From a virus, in the IMG/VR virus record IMGVR_UViG_3300042453_003743, positions 62,001 to 126,000 of that record: a stretch of 64,000 bases of DNA. One strand, written 5' to 3'. Under the pieces are notes generated by a model. That model was not told the origin of the DNA and did no database searches. It was given only the letters and a program-made list of their open reading frames with translations. How positions within the stretch are numbered: the first letter of the stretch is position 1; each line of letters begins with the position of its first letter. Positions 45 to 39,321 of the stretch are shown piece after piece. The translations under genes were made by a program, and so were the position numbers.

Positions 45-67
45 TCTAGAACTATTTAGAGGATAAA

Positions 68-18497: not shown

Positions 18498-18521
18498 AAA
18501 TTTAAAAGAATAAATAATTTT

Positions 18522-18884
18522 ATGGATTATCTAACAAATTATTACAAAAATTTATCAGAACAGCTTCAGCAAAGAGTGAACATTCTTCAAAAACAATTGG
18601 ATGAAACAAACAATTCACCACAAAATCCCATCACGGATCAAGAAGCCTTTGAAAAAGGAGTGCAGGCTGCACAGAACTCTCTCATTCCAAATTTTCGTGA
18701 AGGAGTACAGGGACACCCAAAATTTCATCACGGATACCAATTAGGAATGCGGCACGGACTTGAAGCACTGAAAATGAAAGACGTAAGTCCGGAGACCTAC
18801 GGAGGATACCCAACACCATCAGAAATGGCACAAAAATTTATGGCAACTGACGGAAGACCTCACGTAGGATCTGCTCAGTACTAA
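18522..18884 (+). CDS. Small protein sharing the YYKN targeting N-terminus
   Basis: 120 residues beginning MDYLTNYYKN with a short coiled coil ending in KQLDE, closely parallel to the N-terminus of the divergent 17036-18484 gene (MAYLTEYYKN...SQLNE). The rest is His/Gly/Met-rich (HHGYQLGMRHGLEAL). Late-type promoter AATAAATA 5 nt upstream. Probably sent to the same place, most likely the prohead. Function unknown. Confidence 0.55.
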   Translation: MDYLTNYYKNLSEQLQQRVNILQKQLDETNNSPQNPITDQEAFEKGVQAAQNSLIPNFREGVQGHPKFHHGYQLGMRHGLEALKMKDVSPETYGGYPTPSEMAQKFMATDGRPHVGSAQY

Positions 18885-18908
18885 AATTTTTAAAAAATTA
18901 GTGTAGAG

Positions 18909-18940
18909 AATGGGTTCCCAATAAGGGACCCATTTTTATT
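18909..18940 (+). terminator. Intrinsic terminator
   Basis: ATGGGTTCCC-aataa-GGGACCCAT followed by TTTTTATTT ends the 18522 gene. The right arm (GGGACCCAT) recurs at 19147 and 19268. Confidence 0.65.
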
Positions 18941-18963
18941 TGGCTTCTGTTGAGTTTAATTTT

Positions 18964-19086
18964 TCAGATGACCGAACATCCACGGACCATCAAAAAACCC
19001 ACCACGAACGATCCTACAACGATTGCGACCACACACCAGTCGAGAGGGGTGGTTTCTTTCCAGAGGTTTTGAATAAAATTTTTCAT
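18964..19086 (-). CDS. Small single-span membrane protein
   Basis: A 40-residue ORF with a hydrophilic N-terminus (MKNFIQNLWKE) and one hydrophobic segment (residues about 18-35, VVAIVVGSFVVGFLMV). CTAAATA late promoter at 19093-19099, 7 nt upstream. Could be a holin-like or other phage membrane peptide; evidence is only size, promoter and topology. Confidence 0.4.
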   Translation of the reverse strand: MKNFIQNLWKETTPLDWCVVAIVVGSFVVGFLMVRGCSVI

Positions 19087-19099
19087 TCAACTTATTTAG

Positions 19100-19290
19100 C
19101 CGTTTTCCGCCCGGAAAATTTTTAAGCCATCCCATGGTTTTTGAATAGGGGACCCATATTTCTATAAGTGCGGACAGGATACTGGGGGCTCGGAGAATAT
19201 TAGAGAAAATTAAAGAATATTAGAGGGGGGTGGGAGCTAGCCCGCCCAAATATTAATTTTTTTTAGGGGACCCATTTTACTGTTTGGACA
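19100..19290. other. Intergenic junction between AT-rich and GC-rich parts
   Basis: No convincing gene. It contains two GGGGACCCAT copies, a GGACAGGAT (19172-19180), GGGCTCGGAG and two AGAATATTAGAG units. Related words recur at the other border near 31.8-32.2 kb. Confidence 0.4.
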
Positions 19291-19291
19291 T

Positions 19292-19333
19292 GACCACCAA
19301 GTATATTTTACCACACCCCCCTCTGCTTGTCAA
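19292..19333 (-). promoter_or_regulatory. Extended promoter element E1
   Basis: TTGACA-N17-TAAAAT then ATACTTGGTGG on the minus strand. Points out of the island toward 18964. Divergent with E2. Confidence 0.65.
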
Positions 19334-19347
19334 GGCCCCCTCCCCCC

Positions 19348-19388
19348 TTGACACTAGCCATCACCCGTGATACAATCAACTCGGTTGA
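19348..19388 (+). promoter_or_regulatory. Extended promoter element E2
   Basis: TTGACA-N17-TACAAT then CAACTCGGTTGA. It faces a convergent gene end; no plus-strand ORF follows closely, so any product would be a short or antisense RNA. Confidence 0.6.
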
Positions 19389-19424
19389 GTTTCAAAACTC
19401 CATCGAAGTAAAGGGAAAACCCCC

Positions 19425-19763
19425 TTATGGGGTTTCCTTGCCCTCCTTTTCCTTGGCGATTCGCACCAACTGGGCCGCGTACTTCTTCATGATCTTGCGA
19501 GCGAAGATCATCTGCTTGGGGGACAGCGATCCGCGACGGATCACCTGTTCCGCGAGGCTGCTTGCAAAGGTCGCATCGACTCCGGTGAACCCGACGCCGT
19601 TGGTGTGCTTGGTGGCCGCGTCCCGCTGCTCGTCCTCCGTCTGCTTGTGGTAGATGGCGACCAGCCCACGGAGGAGCCAACGGTCGTCCGTGGCGATCTT
19701 CTCGCGCACGAACTCAACGGTGAGGGGGGCGGCAGGGGCGGGGGCGGTGGTGGTGCTGTTCAT
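19425..19763 (-). CDS. Conserved small phage protein
   Basis: 112 residues. The segment WLLRGLVAIYHKQTEDEQ, then NGVGFTGVDATF and SPKQ...ARKIMKKYAAQL, is a pattern I recognise from hypothetical proteins in many phages; function unknown. Leaderless architecture: TACAAT ends 6 nt before the ATG at 19763, with TTGACA 18 nt further upstream. The stop codon sits in a hairpin followed by CTTT on the minus strand, a likely terminator. Confidence 0.7.
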   Translation of the reverse strand: MNSTTTAPAPAAPLTVEFVREKIATDDRWLLRGLVAIYHKQTEDEQRDAATKHTNGVGFTGVDATFASSLAEQVIRRGSLSPKQMIFARKIMKKYAAQLVRIAKEKEGKETP

Positions 19764-19794
19764 GCGTGTATTGTAGCACTACCCACCTACCATG

Positions 19795-20010
19795 TCAACC
19801 CCAGTCCTTTCTCATGGTGGGGTCGGCATAGGTTTCCTCGTAGCCTGCGGTGTACGCCTCCAGTTCCTCCGGGTCCGTCAGGGTGACTCGCTCTCCCTTG
19901 TAGGTGCCGTTCGGGTACTTGTGAGGGCTAGGCGCTCTCCCGTACCACGCATCGGCACAACCCCGGTCGTAGGGCGATCCGTGCCAGTTGGGGTAGGTCT
20001 TGGGGTTCAC
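19795..20010 (-). CDS. Small conserved phage protein (GTG start)
   Basis: 71 residues. GTG at 20010 is chosen because GTGA overlaps the stop of the upstream gene and AAAGGGGG precedes it; frames starting further upstream lie inside that gene. The YDRGCADAWYGR...PHKYPNGTYKGERV pattern resembles a small phage family with a D-x-W-Y-G-R motif. Tyr-rich; function unknown. Confidence 0.6.
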   Translation of the reverse strand: MNPKTYPNWHGSPYDRGCADAWYGRAPSPHKYPNGTYKGERVTLTDPEELEAYTAGYEETYADPTMRKDWG

Positions 20011-20345
20011 GCCTGCCCCCTTTCGATGTGGATCACGCAGGAGAGAACATGCTCCCGGTGTTCGTCCCATTCCGGGAGACGCGACTCCCACTCGCTGTAC
20101 GGGGAAATCGCAATGATGTACTCCTCGTAGTAGTCATTGCAGGGCAGCACGGCCTCGGCTGCGGCAGCAGCCTGCTCGGCGGTTTCGGCCCCATGAACGA
20201 AGTAGTCGTGGCCCCCCTTGCACTTCCAGTACTGGGGGCACGCGCCCGTTCCGTCCCACGAATGAGCGCCGTAGTTCTCGCGCATCTGCGTGACAACGAC
20301 AAAGGCCGGGGCGGTGCGGGGAGTGACGTTGGTGGTGGTGTCCAT
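20007..20345 (-). CDS. Conserved small phage protein
   Basis: 112 residues from ATG 20345, six nt after TATACT with TTGACA 17 nt upstream (leaderless). FVVVTQMRENYGAHSWDG and CPQYWKCKGGHDYFV are typical of a phage hypothetical family; the two Cys and His could bind metal. Co-translated with the downstream GTG gene. Confidence 0.65.
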   Translation of the reverse strand: MDTTTNVTPRTAPAFVVVTQMRENYGAHSWDGTGACPQYWKCKGGHDYFVHGAETAEQAAAAAEAVLPCNDYYEEYIIAISPYSEWESRLPEWDEHREHVLSCVIHIERGQA

Positions 20346-20394
20346 GCACACAGTATAGCAAAGTGTCTCTGGGATGTCAACCCCCTACATGATA

Positions 20395-20405
20395 AGTCCG
20401 ATAAC
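20395..20405 (+). promoter_or_regulatory. AGTCCGATAAC motif
   Basis: One of at least seven near-identical copies in the island, just upstream of E3. Confidence 0.5.
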
Positions 20406-20412
20406 GGCCCAC

Positions 20413-20454
20413 TTGACACCGGGGGAACCCATGTGGTACAATCTACTTGGTTGA
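20413..20454 (+). promoter_or_regulatory. Extended promoter element E3
   Basis: TTGACA-N18-TACAAT then CTACTTGGTTGA. It points into the terminator of the convergent gene, so a short RNA of about 50 nt would result. Confidence 0.6.
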
Positions 20455-20470
20455 CGTTTCAGGCGCACAC

Positions 20471-20507
20471 AAAATAATAAAAAACCCCCCGGCAACGCAC
20501 CGGGGGG
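20471..20507 (-). terminator. Strong intrinsic terminator
   Basis: On the minus strand CCCCCCGG-TGCGTTG-CCGGGGGG is followed by TTTTTTATTATTTT. Ends the zinc-motif gene. Confidence 0.85.
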
Positions 20508-20525
20508 CCAGCCCTCACGCTGTAG

Positions 20526-20774
20526 TTAGTCCCATTTCGATTCCCCCGTCGCTATGATGCGGTCCACCAGTTCGTCGGTGGTCATCTGCCAATCGGCAGC
20601 GAGGTCTTCCTGCTCAATGTAGAACCAGTCTGAGCCTTCCGCCTCTTCGCGGGAATCGTAGTAGTGGGCCATTTCCGTGGCACAGTCCTCGCACACATCA
20701 TCGAACGAATCGAGAATGAGAACGCCGCAGGCGCGGCACTGGGTGGGGTTGTCAGCCGGGGTGGTGTTGCACAT
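20526..20774 (-). CDS. Small zinc-finger-like protein
   Basis: 82 residues from ATG 20774, 6 nt after TATACT with TTGACA upstream (leaderless). N-terminal CRACG and CEDCA form a CxxC-x11-CxxC zinc knuckle; the C-terminal half is very acidic. An alternative start at 20789 would lie inside the promoter. A host-protein-binding role is possible for such early proteins. Confidence 0.65.
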   Translation of the reverse strand: MCNTTPADNPTQCRACGVLILDSFDDVCEDCATEMAHYYDSREEAEGSDWFYIEQEDLAADWQMTTDELVDRIIATGESKWD

Positions 20775-20844
20775 GACCGTAGTATACACTAGCCCCTCTG
20801 CGGTGTCAAGAGGCTAGGTGAAGTTTTTACACCTACATGCAAAG

Positions 20845-20885
20845 TCCACCAAGTAGATTCTACCATGGCATGGGCAAAATGTCAA
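20845..20885 (-). promoter_or_regulatory. Extended promoter element E4
   Basis: TTGACA-N17-TAGAAT then CTACTTGGTGGA on the minus strand, about 70 nt upstream of the leaderless promoter for 20774. Confidence 0.65.
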
Positions 20886-20928
20886 CCCCCCACCCCCGGA
20901 GGGGCGAGGGGTTGATGCGGTATGCCGA

Positions 20929-21225
20929 TTACCGCATGGGGTTGACGATGATTCCTTCGACCGCTTCGATGCGCTCCTCCTTGCAGGAGCGCCAGTCCTG
21001 CACATTGAAGTCCCAGTAGCACACCATGTTCGGCGGCATCCTGCGGTTTGCGCCCTTCGCAAGCCGATCAGCGGGGATCAGCGTTTCGTCGGTGGTGCCG
21101 ATTGCGACACGCGGCGTACCATCCAACTTGCGGTAGACGAACCGAACGATGCCGACACGCATGGCCGTGCGGGCGTTGTACGAGGCTTCGGACTTGTGAC
21201 TGACGATGTTGACGAGTGGTGTCAT
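20929..21225 (-). CDS. DUF2693 (WYL_2) SH3-barrel protein
   Basis: 98 residues from ATG 21225, six nt after TATCAT (leaderless). VGIVRFVYRKLDGTPRVAIGTT and MVCYWDFNVQDWRSCKEERIEAV match the DUF2693 layout and parallel the C-terminal domain at 16068-16676. It is an early copy, while the larger relative lies in the AT-rich part. Possibly binds nucleic acid or RNA polymerase; not proven. Confidence 0.7.
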   Translation of the reverse strand: MTPLVNIVSHKSEASYNARTAMRVGIVRFVYRKLDGTPRVAIGTTDETLIPADRLAKGANRRMPPNMVCYWDFNVQDWRSCKEERIEAVEGIIVNPMR

Positions 21226-21292
21226 GCCTGCATGATAGCACAAGCGTTCTAGCGTGTCAAGTGACTTCTGACTCTTTCTGCGGGGGCTAGAC

Positions 21293-21333
21293 TTGACAAA
21301 GCGAAAGTGTTGTGGTACAATCTACTTGGTTGA
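21293..21333 (+). promoter_or_regulatory. Extended promoter element E5
   Basis: TTGACA-N17-TACAAT then CTACTTGGTTGA, followed by an AGTCCGATAAC copy at 21355-21365. Confidence 0.65.
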
Positions 21334-21384
21334 ATAAAATAAAAACTTGTTGTGAGTCCGATAACCAAGGGTGCGCCCATGCCC

Positions 21385-21413
21385 TTGACAGCGGTGGAGG
21401 GGTGTGGTAAACT
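21385..21413 (+). promoter_or_regulatory. Sigma70 promoter with normal leader
   Basis: TTGACA-N17-TAAACT. The leader of about 48 nt carries a hairpin GGGCC-gtgt-GGCCC (21423-21436) and TAGGAGA before the ATG. This is the exception to the leaderless pattern. Confidence 0.7.
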
Positions 21414-21467
21414 CGGCGCATCGGGCCGTGTGGCCCTACTCACCACCTCTCTCTAGGAGAACGACAG

Positions 21468-21860
21468 ATGACCTGCACCACCCCCTGCCTCCCCGGTTTT
21501 GAGTCCATCCTCGCCGCCTCCCCGGCCCCCGTCAACTCCGCCGCCACGACCCGTCGCCGTGGCCGCTCCGGCCCCCGGGGCGTCCTCTACACCGTCTCCA
21601 CGGAGGAGTCGGCCCTCGGGCCTTGGGTCCACCGTGAGATCAGCGCGCAAGTGTGGCCCAACGGACGGGGCCAGCGTGTTGCCCGCATTCGGATGCAGGC
21701 CAACGCCTCGGACAGGATCGGCTACTCCTTCGGCATGGTCACCGTGACCGACACCAACGGTACGCCCATCTGCATCGGCATGGACAAGGAGCAGATGCGG
21801 TCGGTCGGTGCCGCCCTCCTCGCCGCAGCGAACTCCGCCCGCGCCAAGTGGCGCAAGTGA
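21468..21860 (+). CDS. Basic protein, possibly abundant early product
   Basis: 130 residues, Arg/Ala/Pro/Thr-rich in the N-terminal third, then strand-rich (SFGMVTVTDTNGTPICIGM) with a C-terminal helix. It is one of few genes in the island with a leader, a hairpin and a clear Shine-Dalgarno (TAGGAGA), suggesting high expression. A small DNA-binding protein is possible from the positive charge; no known family recognised. Confidence 0.65.
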   Translation: MTCTTPCLPGFESILAASPAPVNSAATTRRRGRSGPRGVLYTVSTEESALGPWVHREISAQVWPNGRGQRVARIRMQANASDRIGYSFGMVTVTDTNGTPICIGMDKEQMRSVGAALLAAANSARAKWRK

Positions 21861-21935
21861 GGACCGGACAGAGAGGGGAGGGGTCGCATGACCCCTCCCC
21901 TTGACACTCGCACCACCATCGGATACAATACGCCC

Positions 21936-22118
21936 ATGAAGAACAGCACCACCGAACTCCGCTTCCTCTCCGCCATGCTCTGGCTCTCATCCTTCGCGGG
22001 CACCGCGCTCTGCGTGAACTGGGCGATGGATGGGCACTACCTCCTGTCCGCTTTCACAGGTCTACTGGTTCTGGGCTGCGGATGCCTGATCGCCCATGTT
22101 CACTACCTGCGGAAATAA
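21936..22118 (+). CDS. Small two-span membrane protein
   Basis: 60 residues from ATG 21936, 6 nt after TACAAT with TTGACA upstream (leaderless). Two hydrophobic segments (about residues 8-24 and 30-50). The 41-bp promoter-start region is almost the same as that of the next gene, showing recent duplication. An inner-membrane modifier of the host is possible. Confidence 0.6.
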   Translation: MKNSTTELRFLSAMLWLSSFAGTALCVNWAMDGHYLLSAFTGLLVLGCGCLIAHVHYLRK

Positions 22119-22168
22119 ATCTTCCGGCATCACTTGACACTCGCACCACCAACGGATACAATACACCC

Positions 22169-22447
22169 ATGAAGCGCACCACCACCAAAGACCTGATTGA
22201 TTCCATCCGCACCCTCAACCGCGAGTTGGGCTTCCCCGATGATGGAGGCACCGCCCTGGGCCTCGGTTCGATTCCCGGTTCGTTCTGCCTCTCGGGAGCC
22301 TACGGAGGCTGGCAGATTCAGCGATTCGTCGGACAGGGTTTGGAGTCCGTCACCACCGGATACCGCCCAAAGCGGCAAGTCCGGGAACTAGTAGAGGCAA
22401 TGGTGCAGGGTGTGCGCCTGCACCGCGCCTACCAGATGATCGCATAA
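22169..22447 (+). CDS. Hypothetical early protein
   Basis: 92 residues, leaderless (TACAAT, 6 nt, ATG). The middle is Gly-rich (SIPGSFCLSGAYGGWQIQRF) and the end helical. It is followed at the stop codon by the first copy of the three-hairpin module. No family recognised. Confidence 0.6.
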   Translation: MKRTTTKDLIDSIRTLNRELGFPDDGGTALGLGSIPGSFCLSGAYGGWQIQRFVGQGLESVTTGYRPKRQVRELVEAMVQGVRLHRAYQMIA

Positions 22448-22522
22448 CGAGGTGGTGCTCGTCAACCGAAGAGGCTAACGCCCTGCCCCGGATGTTCCGG
22501 GGCTAGGTTTTTTTATTGGCAG
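22445..22522 (+). ncRNA. Three-hairpin RNA module, copy 1
   Basis: Starts at the TAA stop: hairpin ACGAG-gtggtg-CTCGT, then a linker, hairpin AGGC-taac-GCCCT, then CCCCGGA-tgt-TCCGGGG with TTTTTTTATT. A second copy at 23840-23917 keeps all three stems with base changes on both arms. Directly followed by E6. Likely a structured 3' end or released small RNA. Confidence 0.6.
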
Positions 22523-22562
22523 TTGACACCTGCAAACGCCCGTGGTACAATCTACTTGGTTC
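22523..22562 (+). promoter_or_regulatory. Extended promoter element E6
   Basis: TTGACA-N17-TACAAT then CTACTTGGTTCA. Convergent with E7, 35 bp away. Confidence 0.65.
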
Positions 22563-22596
22563 ACAAATGTATTGTTATTCTCTTTTTCCCACAGCC

Positions 22597-22635
22597 GACC
22601 AAGTATATTCTACCATGAGGGTATTGCGGTGTCAA
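22597..22635 (-). promoter_or_regulatory. Extended promoter element E7
   Basis: Minus-strand TTGACA-N17-TAGAAT then ATACTTGGTCG. Faces E6; a GTTATCGGTCT near-copy of the AGTCCGATAAC motif follows at 22639-22649. Confidence 0.6.
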
Positions 22636-22713
22636 GTCGAGTTATCGGTCTGTGTATAACTTTGATTGTTGGGGTCACTTGACACCGTGGCGCGGGTGTG
22701 GTATCATCATTGC

Positions 22714-23277
22714 ATGAGCACCACTCACACCAACCGTTTCGAAACCGTTCGCACCCTTGCCATCGGCAACTTCATCAACCTACTGACCCGCGCCACGGAG
22801 GCCGATCACCAAGCCGCCAGCGCATGGTACAATGACGCGCAGGCGTTCGCTAACTCGCTCCGCCCCATCACCGGATGGAACCTTGAGGTGGCCGCTAGCG
22901 TCGTGTCAGCCTTCTCGCCCCGCGTCACTTGGGGCCACAACAAGGCGAAGGCGCTCCAGTATGCGCAGGGCATCACGCCGAAGGGGCTGGGCTCCCATGT
23001 CGCTGCGGCGGATCGCTGCGTGGCGGACGGGTTCAACGGGCTGCGCGGGCTCAAGACGAACGCATTCGCCCGTGCCATTGCCGGGGACACGCAGGCCGTC
23101 GTGGTGGATGTGTGGATGTGCCGTGCTGCGGGGCTCGGGAAGGACGCTCCGAACAAGACGGAATATCGGGCAATCGCGGACGCGATCCGCACCATCGCAT
23201 CCACGCGGGTCGTGAACATGGAACCCGCCACGCTTCAGGCTCTCCTGTGGATCATCATCCGGGGGAAGGCGGAGTAA
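22714..23277 (+). CDS. DUF7178-like phage protein
   Basis: 187 residues from ATG 22714, six nt after TATCAT (leaderless). AASVVSAFSPRVTWGHNKAKAL (key: A-x-x-V-x-A-F-S-P-R-x-x-W), GLKTNAFARAI and VVVDVWMCRAAGL match a phage family of unknown function, perhaps a helix-hairpin-helix/glycosylase-like helical fold. A larger relative is at 17036-18484. Being early and host-like in GC, this copy probably acts in the cytoplasm. Confidence 0.65.
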   Translation: MSTTHTNRFETVRTLAIGNFINLLTRATEADHQAASAWYNDAQAFANSLRPITGWNLEVAASVVSAFSPRVTWGHNKAKALQYAQGITPKGLGSHVAAADRCVADGFNGLRGLKTNAFARAIAGDTQAVVVDVWMCRAAGLGKDAPNKTEYRAIADAIRTIASTRVVNMEPATLQALLWIIIRGKAE

Positions 23278-23324
23278 TCCGCCACCCCCTTGACAGGCCG
23301 CACCCCATAGAGTATACTACACCC

Positions 23325-23570
23325 ATGACCAACACCACCACCGAAACCCCCATCGACTACAGAACCGACCCCCGTTACAAGTACGCCTTCGCATACGGAG
23401 TCCTCTCGCATTGCATGACCGTCGTTGCCGAACTGGTCGAACGGTCCAAGCGTGAGGGGGAGATGATCGACCCCAACAACCCGGACCTGAAGTGGGCCAT
23501 CACCCAGTTCAAGATCGCAGACGACAATCTCCACACAGACTCCCAGCACACAAGGTACAATACGCCATGA
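23325..23570 (+). CDS. Hypothetical early protein
   Basis: 81 residues from ATG 23325, 6 nt after TATACT (leaderless). Mostly helical (YGVLSHCMTVVAELVERSKRE). Its last codons contain TACAAT, the -10 of the next gene, and its TGA overlaps that gene's ATG. Confidence 0.6.
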   Translation: MTNTTTETPIDYRTDPRYKYAFAYGVLSHCMTVVAELVERSKREGEMIDPNNPDLKWAITQFKIADDNLHTDSQHTRYNTP

Positions 23571-23842
23571 GCACCACCAACTGGCACAAGCATTTCGGTT
23601 CCGCTATGGACTCGGATCGAACCGTGGAATGCGTTCAATGCGGTTCTTCCATGATCGGAGATGGCCCTGCACAGCCCGTCATCTGCACCGAATGCTACAA
23701 CCACTCGGGCATCATCCTGCGGGATCGGGTGATCTGCATGGAGTGTGCCTCTGAAGTTCTGGAACACGGAACGCTAGTCACCCCCGACACTCACCCCGAT
23801 GGGTTCACTTGCGCGGATTGTGGGGAAACTTCAACGATCTAA
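23567..23842 (+). CDS. Double zinc-ribbon-like protein
   Basis: 91 residues with four CxxC knuckles (CVQCG, CTECY, CMECA, CADCG), enough for two zinc sites. ATGA overlap with the upstream gene, and also TACAAT 5 nt before its ATG, so it may be made from both a coupled and a leaderless message. Followed at its stop by copy 2 of the three-hairpin module. Confidence 0.65.
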   Translation: MSTTNWHKHFGSAMDSDRTVECVQCGSSMIGDGPAQPVICTECYNHSGIILRDRVICMECASEVLEHGTLVTPDTHPDGFTCADCGETSTI

Positions 23843-23917
23843 CGAGGTGGTGCTCGTCAACCGAAAAGGATTCGTCCCTGCCCCGATTCGTTCGGGGCTA
23901 GGTTTTTTTATTGGCAC
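23840..23917 (+). ncRNA. Three-hairpin RNA module, copy 2
   Basis: Same plan as 22445: ACGAG-gtggtg-CTCGT, AGGA-ttcg-TCCCT, CCCCGA-ttcgt-TCGGGG and TTTTTTTATT. The second hairpin shows a paired change relative to copy 1 (C-G to A-T), which supports selection on RNA structure. Confidence 0.6.
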
Positions 23918-23957
23918 TTGACATCGGACAGGATGTATGGTAGAATCTACTTGGTGA
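23918..23957 (+). promoter_or_regulatory. Extended promoter element E8
   Basis: TTGACA-N17-TAGAAT then CTACTTGGTGAA, about 70 nt upstream of the leaderless promoter for 24029. Confidence 0.65.
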
Positions 23958-24028
23958 ACAAAACAAAAATGATTTCTCTCATCACGCACCCCCTTGACAC
24001 CCGTGGCCGTTCGTGATACAATGGGTCC

Positions 24029-24394
24029 ATGACACCACTCAACCACATCCCCAACCGAACCGATTCCTGCATCATGCTCATCGAGTCCATCCGCATGGCT
24101 CACTCCGACCTCTCATGCACGAAGGCCAACCCGGAAGAAACCAATGCGGCCCTCGCTTTCTGCGAGATCGCCGTCAGCATCCCCCCGTCGTGGTTCACGC
24201 ATGAGGAGCGCATCATGGTCAAGGAAACCATCGACACGCTCTACGGTGACGCTCTGAAGTTCATCATCGACCTCGACGGAGGACACGTTTCCTTCATCAA
24301 CAAGTGCAACAACCTCTGCCACGGGCGTTCGTTGGAGTCGTTCGTGGATGTGATGATGCGGCAGCACATGGCGGAGTTTGGATCGGTAGCCTGA
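24029..24394 (+). CDS. Hypothetical early helical protein
   Basis: 121 residues, leaderless (TACAAT, 6 nt, ATG; TTGACA upstream). Helical with several Cys/His and a DLDGGHVSF stretch. No family recognised. Confidence 0.6.
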   Translation: MTPLNHIPNRTDSCIMLIESIRMAHSDLSCTKANPEETNAALAFCEIAVSIPPSWFTHEERIMVKETIDTLYGDALKFIIDLDGGHVSFINKCNNLCHGRSLESFVDVMMRQHMAEFGSVA

Positions 24395-24401
24395 AGGTGA
24401 A

Positions 24402-24433
24402 GTCCACCCCCCGGCCAACGCCGGGGGGTGGAC
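24402..24433 (+). terminator. Perfect 13-bp GC-rich hairpin
   Basis: GTCCACCCCCCGG-ccaacg-CCGGGGGGTGGAC, 8 nt after the stop. No T tract follows, so it could be a stabilising 3' end or a processing structure rather than a classical terminator. Confidence 0.6.
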
Positions 24434-24470
24434 GGATAGTAGTCACTACTGATAGTAGACCCCCGATAAT
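24434..24470 (+). repeat. GATAGTAG repeat cluster
   Basis: GGATAGTAGT and CTGATAGTAG flank an ACTACT inverted copy. Similar clusters occur at 27252, 31351 and 35870. Confidence 0.5.
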
Positions 24471-24490
24471 ATTTCAATAATATTTGGGAC

Positions 24491-24531
24491 TTGACACGCC
24501 GGGATGGTCATGATACAATCGTCTTGGACGA
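24491..24531 (+). promoter_or_regulatory. Extended promoter element E9
   Basis: TTGACA-N17-TACAAT then CGTCTTGGACGA, a divergent member; an AGTCCGATAA copy follows at 24544-24553. Confidence 0.55.
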
Positions 24532-24610
24532 CATTCAAAACAGAGTCCGATAATAAAAAAGATGGACGAGATGGCTTGACACGGACGGGGTGGCATGGTA
24601 GAATGCCAAC

Positions 24611-24841
24611 ATGAACAACCCCAACAACTACAACGACGACGACGCTGAATACTCCGACCTCATGCCCTACGACGATGCGTTCACCGACGAGGACTTCGTT
24701 CAGGAACTCATTGACGAGGGATACAGCGAGGATGAGGCCCGCCGCATGGTTGGCGAGTACGACGCCAACGAATACTACGGCATTGACGAGGACAACGACC
24801 GGGATGTTCCCGACTTCGTTGACGATGGAGACTTCGAATGA
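24611..24841 (+). CDS. Extremely acidic small protein (DNA-mimic candidate)
   Basis: 76 residues with about 29 Asp/Glu, 3 Arg and no Lys. A short helical pair (QELIDEGYSEDEARRMV) in the middle resembles a UBA-like turn. Leaderless (TAGAAT, 6 nt, ATG). Small acidic early phage proteins often mimic DNA to block host nucleases or regulators; that is an inference from charge only. The ATG of the next gene overlaps its stop. Confidence 0.65.
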   Translation: MNNPNNYNDDDAEYSDLMPYDDAFTDEDFVQELIDEGYSEDEARRMVGEYDANEYYGIDEDNDRDVPDFVDDGDFE

Positions 24842-25212
24842 ATGTAAGAATCATTCGGAGCGACAGGCCGACCACCAGCAAAAGGTGGGTCAAAAGACGA
24901 ATCAACGAAACCCTTCGGGGAATCTTCTTTGCATCAGCCGTCATCAGCACGAAGGACTCTGGAAAGAGTTGTAATGGAATGTCAGTAGACATTCACCCTT
25001 TCCCGACCGGAACGATCATTTTCGATGTCCAACTGGGAACGGACTGGACCCGAAAGGGAGTTGAAGCATTCTTGCGCTACATGGAGCAGTCGAACGGTGT
25101 AGTGAGCGTGACCTTGACAACCACAACCGACTCTGATACAATCCACCCATGCGAAAGCCACCCAACCACCGACCCGACCGACCGACCACTTGCGACTTCA
25201 GCGACTTGCTGA
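24838..25212 (+). CDS. Hypothetical basic protein coupled to acidic protein
   Basis: 124 residues, Arg/Lys-rich at the N-terminus (RPTTSKRWVKRRINETLRG) with a strand-helix core. The ATGA overlap couples it to the acidic protein, so an acid-base pair is possible. Its last 20 codons double as the promoter of the next gene and overlap it by 64 bp, so the C-terminal tail is probably not important. Confidence 0.5.
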   Translation: MNVRIIRSDRPTTSKRWVKRRINETLRGIFFASAVISTKDSGKSCNGMSVDIHPFPTGTIIFDVQLGTDWTRKGVEAFLRYMEQSNGVVSVTLTTTTDSDTIHPCESHPTTDPTDRPLATSATC

Positions 25213-25391
25213 ACGAGGTCGCCAAGTTCACCGAAACCAACCCCCTGTGGTTTGAGAACCCGGAGGACTTGGCGCGAATGGCAAGAGCCTACGGCATCAT
25301 CACGATGATGAGTGGACCGGATTCATGCACGGAGGATGAGTGCGAATACATCCTCAACCTTCACCGCACCCTTCAGGAGAACCACAAGTGA
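25149..25391 (+). CDS. Hypothetical early protein
   Basis: 80 residues, leaderless (TACAAT, 6 nt, ATG). Acidic C-terminal half (SCTEDECEYILNLHRTLQ). The promoter lies inside the previous ORF. Coupled to the next gene by GTGA. Confidence 0.6.
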   Translation: MRKPPNHRPDRPTTCDFSDLLNEVAKFTETNPLWFENPEDLARMARAYGIITMMSGPDSCTEDECEYILNLHRTLQENHK

Positions 25392-25756
25392 ACCCCACCA
25401 ACAAGTTTGACGGATTCTTCAGCGGGAACGGAGAAATCCCGCAGAATGTGGAGATGCGACCCCCCACGGTGCCGATGATGGTTCACACCCTCATCGTCCT
25501 GACCGGAACCACGCCGGAGTGGTACAAGAACGAGAAGAACCGCATCATTGCCTGCTCGTTCTTGGAGGCCATTGCCGATGGGGTCAAGGAGTTCAGGGAC
25601 GGGAAGGAGAAGGATTCTCCGATCTCCCTCTCCGAAGCCGCGTTCCTGATGATGACCTCCGAGATTCTGTTCGCCACGCAGCAGTTCGCCTCCGACGAGG
25701 AGCGCGAGCGTTGGCCTGACCGACCGGACACCGTGAGCGACGAGGACGAGGAGTGA
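25388..25756 (+). CDS. Hypothetical early protein (GTG start)
   Basis: 122 residues. GTG at 25388 is chosen because it overlaps the stop of the upstream gene (GTGA) and AGGAG lies 8 nt upstream. Helical with an acidic end (SDEDEE). No family recognised. Confidence 0.6.
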   Translation: MNPTNKFDGFFSGNGEIPQNVEMRPPTVPMMVHTLIVLTGTTPEWYKNEKNRIIACSFLEAIADGVKEFRDGKEKDSPISLSEAAFLMMTSEILFATQQFASDEERERWPDRPDTVSDEDEE

Positions 25757-25757
25757 C

Positions 25758-25785
25758 TTGACAACCCGCGCCCATCGGGTACAAT
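25758..25785 (+). promoter_or_regulatory. tRNA-Lys promoter
   Basis: TTGACA-N16-TACAAT ends 9 nt before the tRNA. Confidence 0.7.
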
Positions 25786-25794
25786 GGGCATCCC

Positions 25795-25867
25795 GCCTCT
25801 GTAGCGCAGTTGGTAGCGCAGTTGACTTTTAATCAATTGGTCGTGGGTTCGAACCCCACCGGAGGCA
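25795..25867 (+). tRNA. tRNA-Lys (TTT)
   Basis: Full cloverleaf: acceptor GCCTCTG/CGGAGGC, anticodon loop CTTTTAA, T arm GTGGG-TTCGAAC-CCCAC. CCA not encoded. The next ATG is only 2 nt after the discriminator base. Confidence 0.9.
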
Positions 25868-25869
25868 TT

Positions 25870-26136
25870 ATGAAAGACAACGAAATCCTAATTCACGCAC
25901 TCACGGAGTCAGACAAACTGCAAATAATTTTTGCAGAACTCATGGAGTTTTGGTTGGAGGGAAAGGAACCTCCCACTTGGTTGGTTGATCAGTACTACGA
26001 CCAACTGGAAGAAGTTCAGGTGGCTTTCAGCGCCGACAAGTTGCATGAGGTCGTGGCGCAGAAGAACCGAGACTTCTACGACGACCTTCAAAATAAACTT
26101 GAAGGCTTGCTTGACAACACCCCGGACTTGTTCTAG
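25870..26136 (+). CDS. Small acidic protein directly after tRNA-Lys
   Basis: 88 residues, acidic and helical. The ATG begins 2 nt after tRNA-Lys, so tRNA 3' cleavage would yield a near-leaderless message. There is no other ribosome-binding site. Its 3' end contains the TTGACA/TAGAAT promoter of tRNA-Leu. Function unknown. Confidence 0.65.
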   Translation: MKDNEILIHALTESDKLQIIFAELMEFWLEGKEPPTWLVDQYYDQLEEVQVAFSADKLHEVVAQKNRDFYDDLQNKLEGLLDNTPDLF

Positions 26137-26147
26137 AATGGGGTCAC

Positions 26148-26220
26148 GGCACGGTAGACCAACGGCAGAGTCAATTGACTCAAAATCAATAAAGTGTGGG
26201 TTCGAATCCCACCCGTGCTA
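26148..26220 (+). tRNA. tRNA-Leu (CAA), short variable loop
   Basis: Acceptor GGCACGG/CCGTGCT, anticodon arm ATTGA-CTCAAAA-TCAAT, T arm GTGGG-TTCGAAT-CCCAC. The variable loop is 5 nt (AAAGT) rather than the long arm usual for bacterial tRNA-Leu. Own promoter at 26111-26139. Confidence 0.8.
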
Positions 26221-26325
26221 CTAAAATAGAGGCGGATCTTCTTCAAGACCGTCCAAGTTGAGAAGGTGAAAGTCTGACGAGTCCGATTCTTTGTAATCGT
26301 AGTGCAGTAAAGTAGCCTTCGACTT
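26221..26325 (+). other. Spacer between tRNA-Leu and tRNA-Arg
   Basis: No ORF. A near-copy of the AGTCCGATAA motif occurs at 26279-26288. Possible pairing of AAGTTGA with TCGACTT would enclose the middle, but no tRNA-like T arm exists. Confidence 0.4.
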
Positions 26326-26399
26326 GTTCCCGTAGCCCAGTTGGATAGAGCAGCCGCCTTCTAAGCGGCAGGTCGCTGGTTCGAATCCAGCCGGGAACG
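26326..26399 (+). tRNA. tRNA-Arg (TCT)
   Basis: Perfect acceptor GTTCCCG/CGGGAAC, anticodon loop CTTCTAA, T arm TCGCTGG-TTCGAAT-CCAGC. Reads AGA. Confidence 0.9.
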
Positions 26400-26435
26400 C
26401 TTGACAAGAAAGGAAACGGTGCTACAATGCTGTAC

Positions 26436-26462
26436 ATGAACACCCCAAAGAGTATATTATAA
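26436..26462 (+). CDS. Eight-residue leader peptide candidate
   Basis: TTGACA-N16-TACAAT, 7 nt, then ATG with the frame MNTPKSIL and TAA. The promoter-start layout is the same as for real island genes, but the frame closes after 8 codons, one being ATA, decoded by the tRNA-Ile encoded just downstream. It could be an attenuator-like leader or an accidental start for the tRNA transcript. Confidence 0.4.
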   Translation: MNTPKSIL

Positions 26463-26468
26463 GTTTTG

Positions 26469-26527
26469 GCGGTGGTTCAAACAAACCGCATAGAGGCAAC
26501 CTACGGTTGCACGGTTCGCAGAGCCGT
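26469..26527 (+). ncRNA. Three tandem hairpins before tRNA-Ile
   Basis: GCGGT...ACCGC (26469-26489), GCAACC-tac-GGTTGC (26496-26510) and ACGGTTC-gca-GAGCCGT (26511-26527) lie back to back between the eight-codon frame and the tRNA. They may be a processed leader or a small RNA. Confidence 0.5.
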
Positions 26528-26541
26528 ACAACTCTGCATAC

Positions 26542-26617
26542 GGAAGGGTGGCTGAATCGTAGTTAGAGCGCATGCCTTATAAGCGTGAATATGTGGGTGC
26601 AACTCCCGCCCCTTCCA
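26542..26617 (+). tRNA. tRNA-Ile (TAT)
   Basis: Acceptor GGAAGGG/CCCTTCC, anticodon loop CTTATAA, T arm GTGGG-TGCAACT-CCCGC (unusual T loop). Reads ATA, a rare codon in GC-rich bacteria. Confidence 0.8.
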
Positions 26618-26640
26618 CTTCCCCCAACCAAAGGAACGAG

Positions 26641-26847
26641 ATGGATCTCAACAAGATCAGAGAGTGCTTGACAACGTTGGAAGACTTCGCCGCCATTCTT
26701 GATGATGGCATGGCTCCTGTCACGCAGGAGGAGATCGAAATCATGGCAGAGGAACTTCCCAAGATCATCTCCACTCTCAAGAAGGAAACCGATGTCAGCA
26801 CGGGCACCGATATGTACGTCAAGTACAGCGGCTTCTGTGACGGCTAA
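26641..26847 (+). CDS. Small acidic helical protein
   Basis: 68 residues from ATG 26641 with AAGGAAC upstream, 23 nt after tRNA-Ile. Acidic helices (TTLEDFAAIL, EEIEIMAEELPKI). Cotranscribed with the tRNA. No family recognised. Confidence 0.6.
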   Translation: MDLNKIRECLTTLEDFAAILDDGMAPVTQEEIEIMAEELPKIISTLKKETDVSTGTDMYVKYSGFCDG

Positions 26848-26898
26848 AAGTTTTTGTTTTTTGCTTGACAACCCCCAACCACAAGGTACAATAGACAC

Positions 26899-27180
26899 AT
26901 GAACTTCGACTTCAACAACATCGCCCTGATCGCCCTCTCGCTCTTTGCCGGATACTTCGGCCTCGCCTACATGAAGGCCCGCTTTGAGGACAGGATGCGC
27001 GCCTACACGCAGCGCATGGATGATCTTCAGACTTGGTTCGACCGTGAGAACGAGCGCATCATGGATCGGATTCGGACTCTTGATGTCCGCGTGAATGATC
27101 TCCGTTTCAACTACGAGACTCACGCCGAATGCAAGAGCAAGTACCCGGCGGAGAAGAACTACTACAACACGGAAGTCTAA
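26899..27180 (+). CDS. Membrane-anchored coiled-coil protein
   Basis: 93 residues, leaderless (TACAAT, 6 nt, ATG). One hydrophobic segment at residues 8-26 followed by a long charged coiled coil. Topology resembles small phage membrane anchors. A terminator follows at 27206-27242. Confidence 0.6.
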   Translation: MNFDFNNIALIALSLFAGYFGLAYMKARFEDRMRAYTQRMDDLQTWFDRENERIMDRIRTLDVRVNDLRFNYETHAECKSKYPAEKNYYNTEV

Positions 27181-27205
27181 ATCCGCTCTAGACTTCCTCT
27201 CATAC

Positions 27206-27242
27206 CAGAGAGCCCCGCAATGGGCTCTCTGTTTTTATTTTG
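27206..27242 (+). terminator. Intrinsic terminator
   Basis: CAGAGAGCCC-cgcaat-GGGCTCTCTG then TTTTTATTTT. Confidence 0.85.
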
Positions 27243-27251
27243 ACAGTAATC

Positions 27252-27290
27252 TACTGATAGTAGTTTTGGATCGGATAGTAGTCCGATAAC
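27252..27290 (+). repeat. GATAGTAG cluster and AGTCCGATAAC copy
   Basis: CTGATAGTAGT, CGGATAGTAGT and then AGTCCGATAAC (27280-27290) immediately upstream of E10. Confidence 0.5.
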
Positions 27291-27305
27291 TAGGCGGCAC
27301 TCGGC

Positions 27306-27346
27306 TTGACAAGTGGAAGGTGATGTGGTACAATCATATTGGTGGA
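27306..27346 (+). promoter_or_regulatory. Extended promoter element E10
   Basis: TTGACA-N17-TACAAT then CATATTGGTGGA, upstream of the leaderless promoter of the MoxR gene. Confidence 0.6.
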
Positions 27347-27423
27347 CAATATAAAAATGGATATTTCAAAATATTTGCGATAGGGTACTTGACACCCCAA
27401 AAAGATTGTGGTACAATGTTCGC

Positions 27424-28695
27424 ATGAACAGCAACATCGACCGCCGCAAGCAGAAGTTCCTCAAGGCTCTCACCGACCTGTACGGAGTCCCATCCTCCAT
27501 CGGTGAGGCACGGTACACCCGTGAGCAGTGCATCAACGCCTTCCACAACACTTACAAGGTGTCGCCCAACGACAACTACAGCACCCTCCCGGCTTGGATC
27601 GTGCAAGACAAGTCCCGTCGCCTTGGCCGGGGACTCTACAACATTCCCGAAACGGTTGTCCTGACCGACGCCATCGAACCCGAAAATGTTTACGAAACTT
27701 CAGGACAGGATTTGACACCACAGGAAACTTGTGGTAGAATGGAAACCATGAACAGCAGCAACTACAACCTCGTCATGCCGTCCAACGATGTTTCCCTCGT
27801 CCCCGTCAAGAACGAAACTTTCGTTCCGTGGGGACACTACGAGGACATCAATGCCATCCTCGCCTCCAAGCAGTTCGCTCCGGTCTACATCACGGGTCTG
27901 TCGGGCAACGGCAAGACCACGATGATCGAACAGGTCTGCGCGAACACCGGACGGGAGTGCATCCGTGTCAACATCACCGCCGAAACCGACGAGGATGACC
28001 TGATCGGTGGGTTCCGCCTCATCAACGGCGAAACCAAGTTCGTGTTCGGTGGAGTCGTGCAGGCCATGCAGCGTGGCGCAATCCTCCTGTTGGACGAGAT
28101 CGACTTGGGAACGGAGCGCATGATGTGCCTTCAGCCCGTGCTTGAGGGCAAGGGTGTCTACATCAAGAAGATCGGAATGTTCGTCAAGCCCGCTCCCGGC
28201 TTCAATGTGGTCGCCACCGCCAACACGAAGGGCAAGGGCGAGTCTGATCGGTTCGTCGGCACCCGCTGCATGAACGAGGCGTTCCTTGACCGCTTCTCCT
28301 ACTGGTTTGAGCAGGAGTACGCTGATAGGGTGGTGGAGGCCCGCATCATCATCCGCAAGATGAAGGCGTATGGCAAGGAGGACAAGGACTTCGCGCAGTA
28401 CCTCGTCAAGTGGGCGGAAACGATCCGCTTGGGCTTCAAGGAGGGCGGCTTGGATGACATCATCACGACCCGTCGCTTGGAGGAGGTCTGCAAGGCGTTC
28501 GCCATCTTCAACGACAAGGAGAAGGCGATCAAGTTGACTCTCACCCGGTTCGACCCGGCTACGCAGGAGGCGTTCTACAACCTCTACACCAAGATCGACC
28601 CGACCATCCTTCCGCCTGTGGACGGGATGGACAAGGAGAAGCAGGCCGTTCCCGCTCCCTCCCCGTCTGACACCAACTACGCAATCAACGCCTAA
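27424..28695 (+). CDS. MoxR/CobS-like AAA+ ATPase with N-terminal targeting domain
   Basis: 423 residues from ATG 27424, six nt after TACAAT (leaderless). Residues 1-75 form a small domain repeated in the 74-residue protein at 28713. The ATPase core follows: Walker A GLSGNGKTTM (about residue 160), Walker B AILLLDEIDLG, sensor-1 VVATANTKGKG and an arginine-finger segment DRFSYWF. Cyanophage CobS-like proteins are the closest known group. MoxR ATPases usually work with VWA proteins such as the one encoded at 29012 to remodel complexes. An internal promoter and start at 27748 can give a short form lacking the first domain. Confidence 0.8.
   Translation: MNSNIDRRKQKFLKALTDLYGVPSSIGEARYTREQCINAFHNTYKVSPNDNYSTLPAWIVQDKSRRLGRGLYNIPETVVLTDAIEPENVYETSGQDLTPQETCGRMETMNSSNYNLVMPSNDVSLVPVKNETFVPWGHYEDINAILASKQFAPVYITGLSGNGKTTMIEQVCANTGRECIRVNITAETDEDDLIGGFRLINGETKFVFGGVVQAMQRGAILLLDEIDLGTERMMCLQPVLEGKGVYIKKIGMFVKPAPGFNVVATANTKGKGESDRFVGTRCMNEAFLDRFSYWFEQEYADRVVEARIIIRKMKAYGKEDKDFAQYLVKWAETIRLGFKEGGLDDIITTRRLEEVCKAFAIFNDKEKAIKLTLTRFDPATQEAFYNLYTKIDPTILPPVDGMDKEKQAVPAPSPSDTNYAINA
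27712..27748 (+). promoter_or_regulatory. Internal promoter inside MoxR gene
   Basis: TTGACA-N17-TAGAAT, 7 nt, then in-frame ATG 27748 at codon 109. It has the exact layout of the other leaderless starts and would produce a 315-residue ATPase without its N-terminal domain. Confidence 0.6.
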
Positions 28696-28712
28696 CAAAA
28701 AGGAAAAAGAAA

Positions 28713-28937
28713 ATGCCTTACATGAACAAGCGCAATCGTTTCGTCGCAGCCGCCAAGCAGTACGCGGATGCCAACCTCAACGGCGACTACAGCAACTTCA
28801 AGAAGTCTGACCTCCTCACGGTCGCACAGTCGATCAACATGAAGGGGACTCCGACTTGGGTTGTCAAGGAGTACGCAAGCGCGGTGAGCCGTGGCGTCTA
28901 CGACCTGACGAGCCTGATCGCTCCTGTGACTGTCTGA
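28713..28937 (+). CDS. Stand-alone paralog of the MoxR N-terminal domain
   Basis: 74 residues with AAGGAAAAAG before the ATG, 17 nt after the MoxR stop. It matches MoxR residues 1-75: an R-K/N-R-F-x-x-A start, then TPTWVVKEYASAVSRGVYDL against LPAWIVQDKSRRLGRGLYNI. It may compete with or replace the targeting domain of the ATPase. It lies between the ATPase and VWA genes and is probably part of the same complex. Confidence 0.65.
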   Translation: MPYMNKRNRFVAAAKQYADANLNGDYSNFKKSDLLTVAQSINMKGTPTWVVKEYASAVSRGVYDLTSLIAPVTV

Positions 28938-29011
28938 TGCTGTTCTGATGTGGGGTGGGGCAATCGGCCCCACCCCTTGACAAGACGCACCACCTGTGGT
29001 AGAATACCGAC

Positions 29012-31252: not shown

Positions 31253-31267
31253 GTAATATTAGGTACG

Positions 31268-31310
31268 CCCCCACCAGGAAGGAGAGAGCCTGGTGGGGGT
31301 TTTCTTTTGT
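31268..31310 (+). terminator. Strong intrinsic terminator
   Basis: CCCCCACCAGG-aaggagagag-CCTGGTGGGGG then TTTTCTTTT ends the MoxR/VWA unit. Confidence 0.9.
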
Positions 31311-31349
31311 CAAGAACAAAAATTATTATTTCCAGAAAATAATAATTTT

Positions 31350-31387
31350 GATAGTAGTACTGATAGTACTCGGATCGGATAGTAGTT
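31350..31387 (+). repeat. GATAGTAG repeat cluster
   Basis: Two TGATAGTA(G/C) units plus CGGATAGTAGTTAT; also seen at 24434 and 27252. Confidence 0.5.
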
Positions 31388-31395
31388 ATTTGGAC

Positions 31396-31435
31396 GCACC
31401 AAGTATATTGTACCATGCCGGATTCCCGGTGTCAA
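31396..31435 (-). promoter_or_regulatory. Extended promoter element E11
   Basis: Minus-strand TTGACA-N17-TACAAT then ATACTTGGTGC. It points back at the terminator; no minus-strand gene follows. Divergent with E12. Confidence 0.6.
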
Positions 31436-31466
31436 GCCCCCCTGTTATCGTCTTATCGGACTCCCC

Positions 31467-31508
31467 TTGACAAACTTCCGACCCCGTGGTACAATCGTAT
31501 TGGTGGAC
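31467..31508 (+). promoter_or_regulatory. Extended promoter element E12
   Basis: TTGACA-N17-TACAAT then CGTATTGGTGGA. TTATCGGACT at 31453-31462 and GTTATCGGACT at 31560-31570 flank it. Confidence 0.6.
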
Positions 31509-31624
31509 AAAATAATTGAATAGTTTATCAGACTTAGAACACAGGCCGGTGCTCAGAGGGTTATCGGACTTGTATTCAATTGCTTGACAACCCCTATATC
31601 TGGTGTATAGTTACCAGACTGTTC

Positions 31625-31879
31625 ATGCGACTGATAACCCCCCAGCCCCCTGTGAGTACTGATCGTTATGGGGCGGGGGGTTATCGGGCGTTATTCTACC
31701 TGATTATTACCGGTCTGTCCCTCCTGGTTATATACTGGGCGGTTATCGGACTTGGAAAAATTATTCAGAATAATAACGGACAGGATTCAGAGGGACAGGA
31801 TCCAGGAAAGACGGCTCACTACTATCAGGGCGGGGTCCTCCAGATGCTCAGATACGCCAGGTCCCTCCCCACAGATTAA
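31625..31879 (+). CDS. Small single-span membrane protein
   Basis: 84 residues; TTGACA-N16-TATAGT about 13 nt before the ATG. One hydrophobic segment (residues about 24-45, LFYLIITGLSLLVIYWAVIGL). The 3' half of the coding region contains two GGACAGGAT units of the repeat array, so the C-terminal half may not be under strong selection. Confidence 0.5.
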   Translation: MRLITPQPPVSTDRYGAGGYRALFYLIITGLSLLVIYWAVIGLGKIIQNNNGQDSEGQDPGKTAHYYQGGVLQMLRYARSLPTD

Positions 31880-31955
31880 AAATAATAATTTCCGGACAGG
31901 ATTGAAACGGACATCCAGGAAACACCTGGACAGGATTCAAATTGTCGGACAGGAT
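31778..31955 (+). repeat. GGACAGGAT repeat array
   Basis: Five exact GGACAGGAT copies at 31778, 31793, 31894, 31928 and 31947, irregularly spaced; a further copy is at 19172 by the other island border. Possible protein-binding iterons. Confidence 0.55.
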
Positions 31956-32206
31956 TGAGAAATTGTTAAAATTTCTCAAAATTTGTCAAATTTCTTTGAA
32001 AATTTGTAATTATTTGCTTGACAGCCTATAATGCCCTATAAGGCGTCGGTTTAAAAGAGGGCTCGGAGGGGTCTTTAAGGACTTGGAGGGGCTTGGAGGG
32101 CATTGTAAGACGATTAAAGGGGTGTTAGAGGGTGGGTCTGTAACTCCAAATTTCTCAAATATTCTTCAATATTCTTTACCCCACTCACTCCCACTCTCCC
32201 CCACCT
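31956..32206. other. Noncoding, strand-biased junction
   Basis: No ORF. It holds an AT-rich stretch, a TTGACA/TATAAT-like region (32019-32033), then a purine-rich run with repeated GGAGGG(G) units, then a C-rich tract. The base asymmetry would favour R-loops or an origin-like function, but this is not proven. Confidence 0.35.
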
Positions 32207-39269: not shown

Positions 39270-39283
39270 GAAGATATTTATCC

Positions 39284-39321
39284 AATAAAAAACCCGGTTT
39301 TTCAGATGCGGGAAAACCGGG
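39284..39321 (-). terminator. Terminator of tmRNA transcript
   Basis: CCCGGTTTT...AAAACCGGG followed on the minus strand by TTTTTTAT. Confidence 0.75.

Follow-up and report, generated by a model that had tools for sequence, protein, structure and literature searches.

A stop-codon hairpin of a phage RNA module is complementary to the starts of predicted leaderless genes

The core of a hairpin that is fused to the stop codons of small phage genes, GGUGGUGC, is the exact reverse complement of GCACCACC, the octamer found most often at the beginning of predicted leaderless genes of these phages. This match between a loop (of stem-loop SL1) and a start box is the most interesting property of the RNA module described here, and it was missed by the preliminary description of this DNA. 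The main inference of that description, selection on RNA structure, was right and understated, and its parts on three hairpins and on a cassette need correction. The structure of the module is strongly supported as real and widespread. At a probability of about 0.45, our main reading is that the module is a 3'-UTR antisense element directed against leaderless early mRNAs, which in the clade of the window would also serve as a terminator.

The window is a stretch of 64,000 nucleotides that comprises bases 62001-126000 of a 137,341-base IMG/VR virus record. The record carries tailed-phage genes for a large terminase, an SbcC-like protein, a ribonucleotide reductase and an AAA ATPase, and next to the AAA ATPase is a peptidase with relatives in 463 phage records, mainly of cyanophages. 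This gene set resembles that of T4-type phages in a comparison made without phylogeny. A blastn search of the whole region against 50,697 named phages gave no match, and hence no cultured relative is known here; a module-sized query returned a single, chance-like partial match among the named phages. The G+C content of the record is about 35%, and an island of ~18.5-33 kb (window 18500-33000) that holds both copies of the module is mostly 50-60% G+C. The same jump is present in the related loci L001 and L002. Genes of the island have TTGACA-N17-TANNAT, six bases and then ATG, and this promoter-to-ATG layout suggests that they are leaderless. Elsewhere in the window, a permuted tmRNA gene lies beside a tRNA-Tyr at 39244-39643 on the minus strand (Rfam 81.8 bits; ARAGORN tag ANIKAAPMRMAA).

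Two copies of the module, A and B, start at 22445 and 23840, each with a TAA stop (Table 1), and both keep ACGAG-gtggtg-CTCGT unchanged, just as the preliminary description had reported. ACGAGGTGGTGCTCGT has exactly two sites in the window and one more with 3 mismatches, where 0.12 are expected by chance at up to 3 mismatches; GGGGCTAGGTTTTTTTATTGGCA has exactly two sites, with 0 expected. The paired changes reported between the copies are real as well: the arms of the second stem read AGGC/GCCCT or AGGA/TCCCT, and the apex arms of the terminator hairpin also differ jointly (GG..CC and GA..TC). Taken alone, these two double changes would be weak evidence. The orthologous pair in L002 has the same two forms, and the difference between A and B is therefore one old event each. 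A covariance search of the whole 137-kb record gave no copies beyond A and B at E < 0.1, so that the record has two only.

Table 1. Positions in the window of the two module copies and of neighbouring features.
Feature	Position	Strand	Remarks
Leaderless ORF (predicted), 92 aa, ending at copy A	22169-22447	+	no Pfam or PHROG family
Start box GCACCACC of the 92-aa ORF	22176-22183	+	
Copy A, TAA stop overlapping SL1	22445-22462	+	stem ACGAG/CTCGT, 22447-22451 with 22458-22462
Copy A, SL1 loop GTGGTG	22452-22457	+	
Copy A, three-way junction	22463-22509	+	P1 AACC/GGTT, 22464-22467 with 22506-22509
Copy A, P2; P3	22473-22482; 22485-22503	+	
Copy A, unpaired GAA; TA	22468-22470; 22504-22505	+	
Copy A, U7 tract	22508-22514	+	intrinsic-terminator feature, this clade only
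Class II promoter downstream of copy A	22523-22559	+	TTGACA-N17-TACAAT-CTACTTGG
39-bp segment between two convergent class II promoters	22560-22598	.	
Convergent class II promoter	22599-22635	-	TTGACA-N17-TAGAAT-ATACTTGG
Zn-ribbon-like ORF ending at copy B	23567-23842	+	Pfam matches sub-threshold; start is ATGAGCACCACC
Copy B, TAA stop overlapping SL1	23840-23857	+	loop GTGGTG 23847-23852
Copy B, three-way junction	23858-23904	+	P1 23859-23862 with 23901-23904; P2 23868-23877; P3 23880-23898
Copy B, U7 tract	23903-23909	+	
Class II promoter downstream of copy B	23918-23954	+	TTGACA-N17-TAGAAT-CTACTTGG
Further start box GCACCACC, possible target	21946-21953	+	in leaderless ORF (predicted) starting at 21936

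The module had been described as three hairpins in a row. The hairpin on the stop codon stands, and what follows it is a three-way junction of P1, P2 and P3: the row of hairpins is incomplete because in relatives an outer stem, P1, closes P2 and P3. In SL1, the last A of the stop TAA opens a 5-bp stem with a conserved GUGGUG loop, and GGUGGUGC is this loop with its closing pair. The SL1 stems differ among members (ACGAG, ACTGG, AAGAG, ACATG) while the loop is constant. P1 takes the forms CAACC..GGUUG, CAGCC..GGCUG and others, with a consensus of CARCC/GGYUG plus quite different stems, and by eye it is 13 bp long in L158. Within the junction, P3 has 7 bp, the unpaired GAA and UA are conserved, and P2 is the weakest helix with 3 bp and one covarying pair. 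When copy B is folded as a single sequence the second stem is not chosen; RNAalifold, run unprompted on the alignments, recovers the same helices.

Compensatory changes occur at 15 of the 20 base pairs and 97.8% of cells are paired in the 26 distinct sequences of alignment A5, which is fitted to covariance model R1, contains members that built it and is hence biased toward it. Slid controls of A5 give 3 to 7 pairs with compensatory changes and 24 to 54% of cells paired, and its shuffles give 4.7 +/- 1.3 covarying pairs, with 15 attained in 0 of 500. Alignment A3, made without structure, has 5 of 20 such pairs; its slides from -3 to +2 have none and the slide by +3 has 2. Of its shuffles, 97 of 500 attain its pair count, and none attain its paired cells and covariation score. 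The evidence for selection on RNA structure thus goes far beyond the two copies from which it had been proposed. SL1 and the junction are separable, as SL1 precedes ordinary terminators in L157, L159, L186 and L201, at TAA. The core GGTGGTGC of SL1, which is the reverse complement of the start-box octamer, is present in 25 of 31 aligned members, and the six members without it indicate that the junction has a role without that core.

Two other explanations of the stop-codon hairpin were rejected. By eye, the frame past the TAA is open in the window copies; stop-codon read-through is ruled out because this frame differs among relatives, with indels in L155 and L156, and the arms of SL1 change together. 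UAACGAGGUG resembles what we take to be the complement of the 16S 3' end, and Shine-Dalgarno mimicry as a conserved feature fails since little of this sequence is left in the ACTGG and ACATG stems and the loop remains.

The preliminary description would have been refuted in part by a lack of more copies, and this is not what relatives show: the module also occurs in 27 other viral records and at the end of one contig from a bacterial bin. With its own record, the module is present in 28 viral records, most of them with one copy. Model R1 was built from 17 sequences; it matches all 26 records given to it (25 viral and the bacterial bin) and then two more viral records. The 92-aa protein encoded in front of copy A has relatives at 34 loci found by a search of viral_contigs. 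Besides L001 and L002, nine of these loci have a diverged module or SL1 at their 3' ends, and pattern scans added more. An early scan of the loci then collected had found the module in L001, L002 and its own record only. As a search pattern, CGGGGCTAGGTTTTTT was discarded, since it brought up mainly sequences unlike the module, and the loose pattern CGAG-N6-CTCGTCAACCG gave, among the matches listed from viral_contigs, mostly chance ones. The contig end is position 1-62 (minus strand) of L206, an 8-kb contig of a Phycisphaerales bin, which joins a bacterial-looking protein to the C-terminus of a phage protein. Given this fusion at the contig end, L206 was treated as a chimera or as phage DNA and not as evidence of a host.

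Small genes of no fewer than eight unrelated kinds, with families judged by eye from C-termini, have the module after their stops. L002 is occupied at both window sites and L001 at the first, its contig ending soon after. Between the copies, the window has genes for DUF7178, an 81-aa protein and the Zn-ribbon-like protein, and L002 has a 127-aa ORF and, by eye, a relative of the 81-aa protein. L157 retains the promoter region of L194 and has lost the ORF, which leaves a promoter plus the module; in L199, the promoter is followed by six bases, ACG-AAC-TAA and the module. These two sites suggest an RNA function apart from the protein, and recent gene loss is possible there. In L186, ARAGORN found none of the tRNA that by eye seemed likely upstream of the module. 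In L152, L156, L161, L162, L186 and others, the module is closely followed by a large palindrome, CTACTATC...GATAGTAG, which encloses another hairpin that is sometimes a good terminator. At L152 9645, L155 10002 and L205 12370, GGGTGGTGCTAGGGGG follows the stop of another gene family with no clear hairpin, and GGTGGTGC after stop codons may be more widespread than SL1.

No octamer is commoner than GCACCACC within the first 36 nt of predicted leaderless genes, where it occurs in 34 of 151 genes with a stop within the locus; the top hexamers are CACCAC (71/151) and ACCACC (69/151). In a wider non-redundant set the octamer is present in 24 of 156 starts and absent from all 1122 internal windows. 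When codon order is shuffled within the starts the count is 4.1 +/- 1.8, and none of 1000 shuffles attain 24. Removal of near-duplicate starts took 151 to 111 and 221 to 156, and totals also differ because the earliest count of leaderless genes used a looser -35 pattern on part of the records and later sets were stricter or wider. The start box has a fixed place: CACCAC begins at base 6, 9 or 12, counted from the A of AUG as 1, in 51 of the 57 starts that have it. Copy B contains 63 octamers; 50 of them lack a complement at starts, and outside those that overlap the loop the maximum is 1. Within this record, the starts of all 117 ORFs in the AT-rich part lack CACCAC, and among the 15 island ORFs with 100 aa or more it is found at the start of 4. 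Across records it is found in 83 of 194 starts where SL1 is present and in 4 of 35 where it is absent (p 2.7e-4, ignoring kinship, with four records lacking SL1 and several covered only in part). The loop GTGGTG occurs in 35 hairpins with a stem of at least 5 bp, a count that includes antisense strands of gene starts, as against 0-10 for the 14 other arrangements of the same letters.

GGUGGUGC is a conserved seed that is complementary to the GCACCACC start boxes in the initiation regions of several genes, with predicted accessibility. The duplex energy of the octamer is predicted at -14.5 kcal/mol and the start boxes are predicted to be mostly unpaired (0.84). The six-base loop of SL1 sits in a 5-bp hairpin that must open for 8-nt pairing. 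The codon-order bias at starts could come partly from protein N-termini of the MNSTTT kind, and the start box could be no more than a CA-rich initiation enhancer without structure, its match to SL1 being a coincidence or owed to a third partner. A 16S segment that might read GGUGGUGC in some bacteria was also considered; the sole match in the module-bearing bacterial bin reads CAGGTGCTGCATGG and lends this idea no support.

On our main reading, the loop may control translation of early genes through its complement in the start box. From the sequence we infer predicted leaderless promoters and a putative stable RNA that would pair and repress. This 3' RNA, inside its mRNA or released from it, would pair with the start boxes of leaderless early transcripts and lower 70S initiation on them, and one SL1 would act on many early genes simultaneously. 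Early expression would be self-limiting, and late genes, taken to have no start box, would be spared. The three-way junction probably provides a stable 3' end. CA repeats past the start codon are described to boost leaderless translation (PMC9031893), and CA-rich translation enhancers are silenced through pairing by GcvB (PMC3879156).

The terminator and promoter belong to a smaller group. An extended promoter element had been noted after each copy, and TTGACA-N17-TGGTANAAT-CTACTTGG is indeed found after both. The window copies have the GC-rich hairpin and U-tract of an intrinsic terminator, here P3/P1 followed by U7. The U7 tract and promoter tail occur only in the window, L001 and L002; the long U-tract is not conserved in relatives and is short or absent outside this clade, and at 5 of the 25 module sites scanned a distinct intrinsic terminator follows within 180 nt. 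The junction of the window's clade would have gained the U7 tract and the promoter, and from their order the module would end one early transcription unit and start the next. The cassette of terminator plus promoter proposed earlier thus holds for this clade and is absent as such elsewhere. As for its being mobile or duplicated, the unrelated upstream genes and the different intervening genes of the window and L002 speak for it, and the single copy in most records speaks against it.

The promoters after the copies belong to what we call class II, which have TTGACA-N17-TGGTANAAT-(C/A)TACTTGG or close to it and lie at window 19297-31470, within this record only in the island. Examples are at 20413, 21293, 22523, 23918, 27306 and 31467 on the plus strand and at 19333, 20885, 22635 and 31435 on the minus strand. 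In them, a conserved tail of 8 bases takes the place of the six free bases and ATG of leaderless promoters. A motif, AGTCCGATAA, sometimes as GATAGTAGTCCGATAA, is repeated upstream of the -35 element (window 20413, 27306, 31435; L001 12460, 13288) and is possibly a regulator site. At window 22546-22612, L001 14537-14605 and L002 9098-9166, a segment of 38-39 bp is flanked by two convergent promoters that make up an inverted repeat. L001 and L002 carry the 38-bp segment in exactly opposite orientations, with 97.3% identity otherwise over 2.1 kb, and an invertible element or hairpin-mediated inversion is possible at this site.

The module could be a structured 3' end only, a terminator or barrier to 3' exonucleases that in the window's clade became a shuffling cassette of the kind known as promoter early stem-loops (PeSLs), with the complementarity irrelevant. 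The U7 tract and promoter that follow each window copy, the different genes that the window and L002 have between A and B, the GC-rich P3 and the conserved junction fit this, and PeSLs are described in T4-like phages (PMC4503421). A plain 3' end, however, has no need of an invariant loop that is complementary to the commonest start octamer, the U-tract fades outside the clade where some sites have a nearby terminator of their own, and SL1 also precedes ordinary terminators; we consider this explanation unlikely, while still the one to be taken most seriously beside our own. Another possibility is a closed loop in cis, in which the 3' SL1 pairs with the start box of its own mRNA and a ribosome at the UAA is reloaded, with a positive effect. 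The fusion of SL1 to the stop codon agrees with such a loop: GGTGGTG lies within 25 nt past the stop in 17 of 151 genes, and all 17 end in TAA, compared with 81 of 151 overall. In addition, the start of copy B's own gene, ATGAGCACCACC, is complementary over 12 nt, including the AUG and with one G-U pair, to GGUGGUGCUCGU of SL1. CACCAC is commoner in SL1-bearing genes (13/17 vs 58/134, p 0.018), but once redundancy is removed the association weakens (10/14 vs 42/97, p 0.083). Many genes with a start box lack SL1, and L157 and L199 retain the module without an ORF. A loop in cis is rather improbable in our judgement.

The junction could also belong to the DUF3800-IX RNA group and share its function, with SL1 as an accessory. 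At gathering scores, Rfam finds only tRNAs and the permuted tmRNA in the window. At relaxed thresholds the best match is DUF3800-IX (RF02968), in two of five members tested: copy B at 19.0 bits and L152 at 18.8, with E of 0.04 to 0.09 and with CCGAA, UGCCC and GGGCUAGG aligned. A three-way junction with conserved junction letters is seen in these two members when aligned to the RF02968 consensus. The scores are well below the gathering score of 36.8, and L186, L158 and L180 gave no match at the relaxed thresholds. DUF3800-IX is named for a neighbouring gene for a DUF3800 protein, and this gene (PF12686) was found neither in the module's own record nor in any of 26 further records. We therefore do not file the module under DUF3800-IX, and a shared function is quite improbable. 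The exact fusion to TAA in many unrelated genes could recall a mobile DNA hairpin of the REP or IS200/IS605-like kind with stop codons as its insertion sites. The usual single copy per record and the compensatory changes across records make this idea barely credible.

A well-supported structured RNA that has no Rfam family above threshold is thus present in 28 phage records, and it illustrates how such a 3' end can become a terminator-promoter cassette within one clade. The module is also a concrete candidate for RNA pairing with leaderless mRNAs, with a defined loop and defined targets. In a review on leaderless translation, small RNAs that bind leaderless mRNAs are called plausible and, to its authors' knowledge, unreported (PMC9031893), and among the open-licence papers listed in a search there was no clear example of a small RNA that acts on a leaderless mRNA. 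If the stop-codon hairpin on its junction pairs with start boxes, in trans or in cis, it would form an RNA code in which the ends of leaderless genes are tied to the starts of such genes, and would be the first RNA-based control of leaderless initiation; we put this forward tentatively, at somewhat less than even odds.

Among known systems, DUF3800-IX shares with the module a three-way junction, unpaired GAA / U / UA and the segments CCGAA, UGCC and GGCUAGG. The module differs from it in its sub-gathering scores, a shorter P1, the lack of a DUF3800 gene and an SL1 that lies outside the matched model. Coaxial stacking in DUF3800-IX is noted in a structure-prediction paper (PMC7657543). The PeSLs of T4-like phages, as described in PMC4503421, place a terminator and an early promoter repeatedly between early genes, and the clade of the window resembles them. 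Their layout, a stem-loop terminator followed by an early-type promoter, is seen at both window copies, L001 and L002 and not in most other records. The copies may also be dispersed ones that bound exchangeable genes, to judge from a single comparison, of the window with L002, where different genes lie between the two copies. Compared with the PeSLs of that description, the conserved part of the module is a multi-helix RNA, which is also found in records without the U-tract or promoter. Like 3'-UTR-derived small RNAs, the module is a structured mRNA 3' end that could be released as a regulator; it differs from them in that its 5' boundary is a stop codon and that at two sites it comes straight after a promoter. 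In the way it would work, the module is closest by analogy to GcvB of enteric bacteria, a segment of which pairs with C/A-rich enhancers of several mRNAs (PMC3879156). GcvB is a host-encoded small RNA that acts in trans on leadered mRNAs, whereas the module is phage-encoded, carries its pairing segment in a hairpin loop fused to a stop codon and has the coding starts of predicted leaderless genes as its candidate targets.
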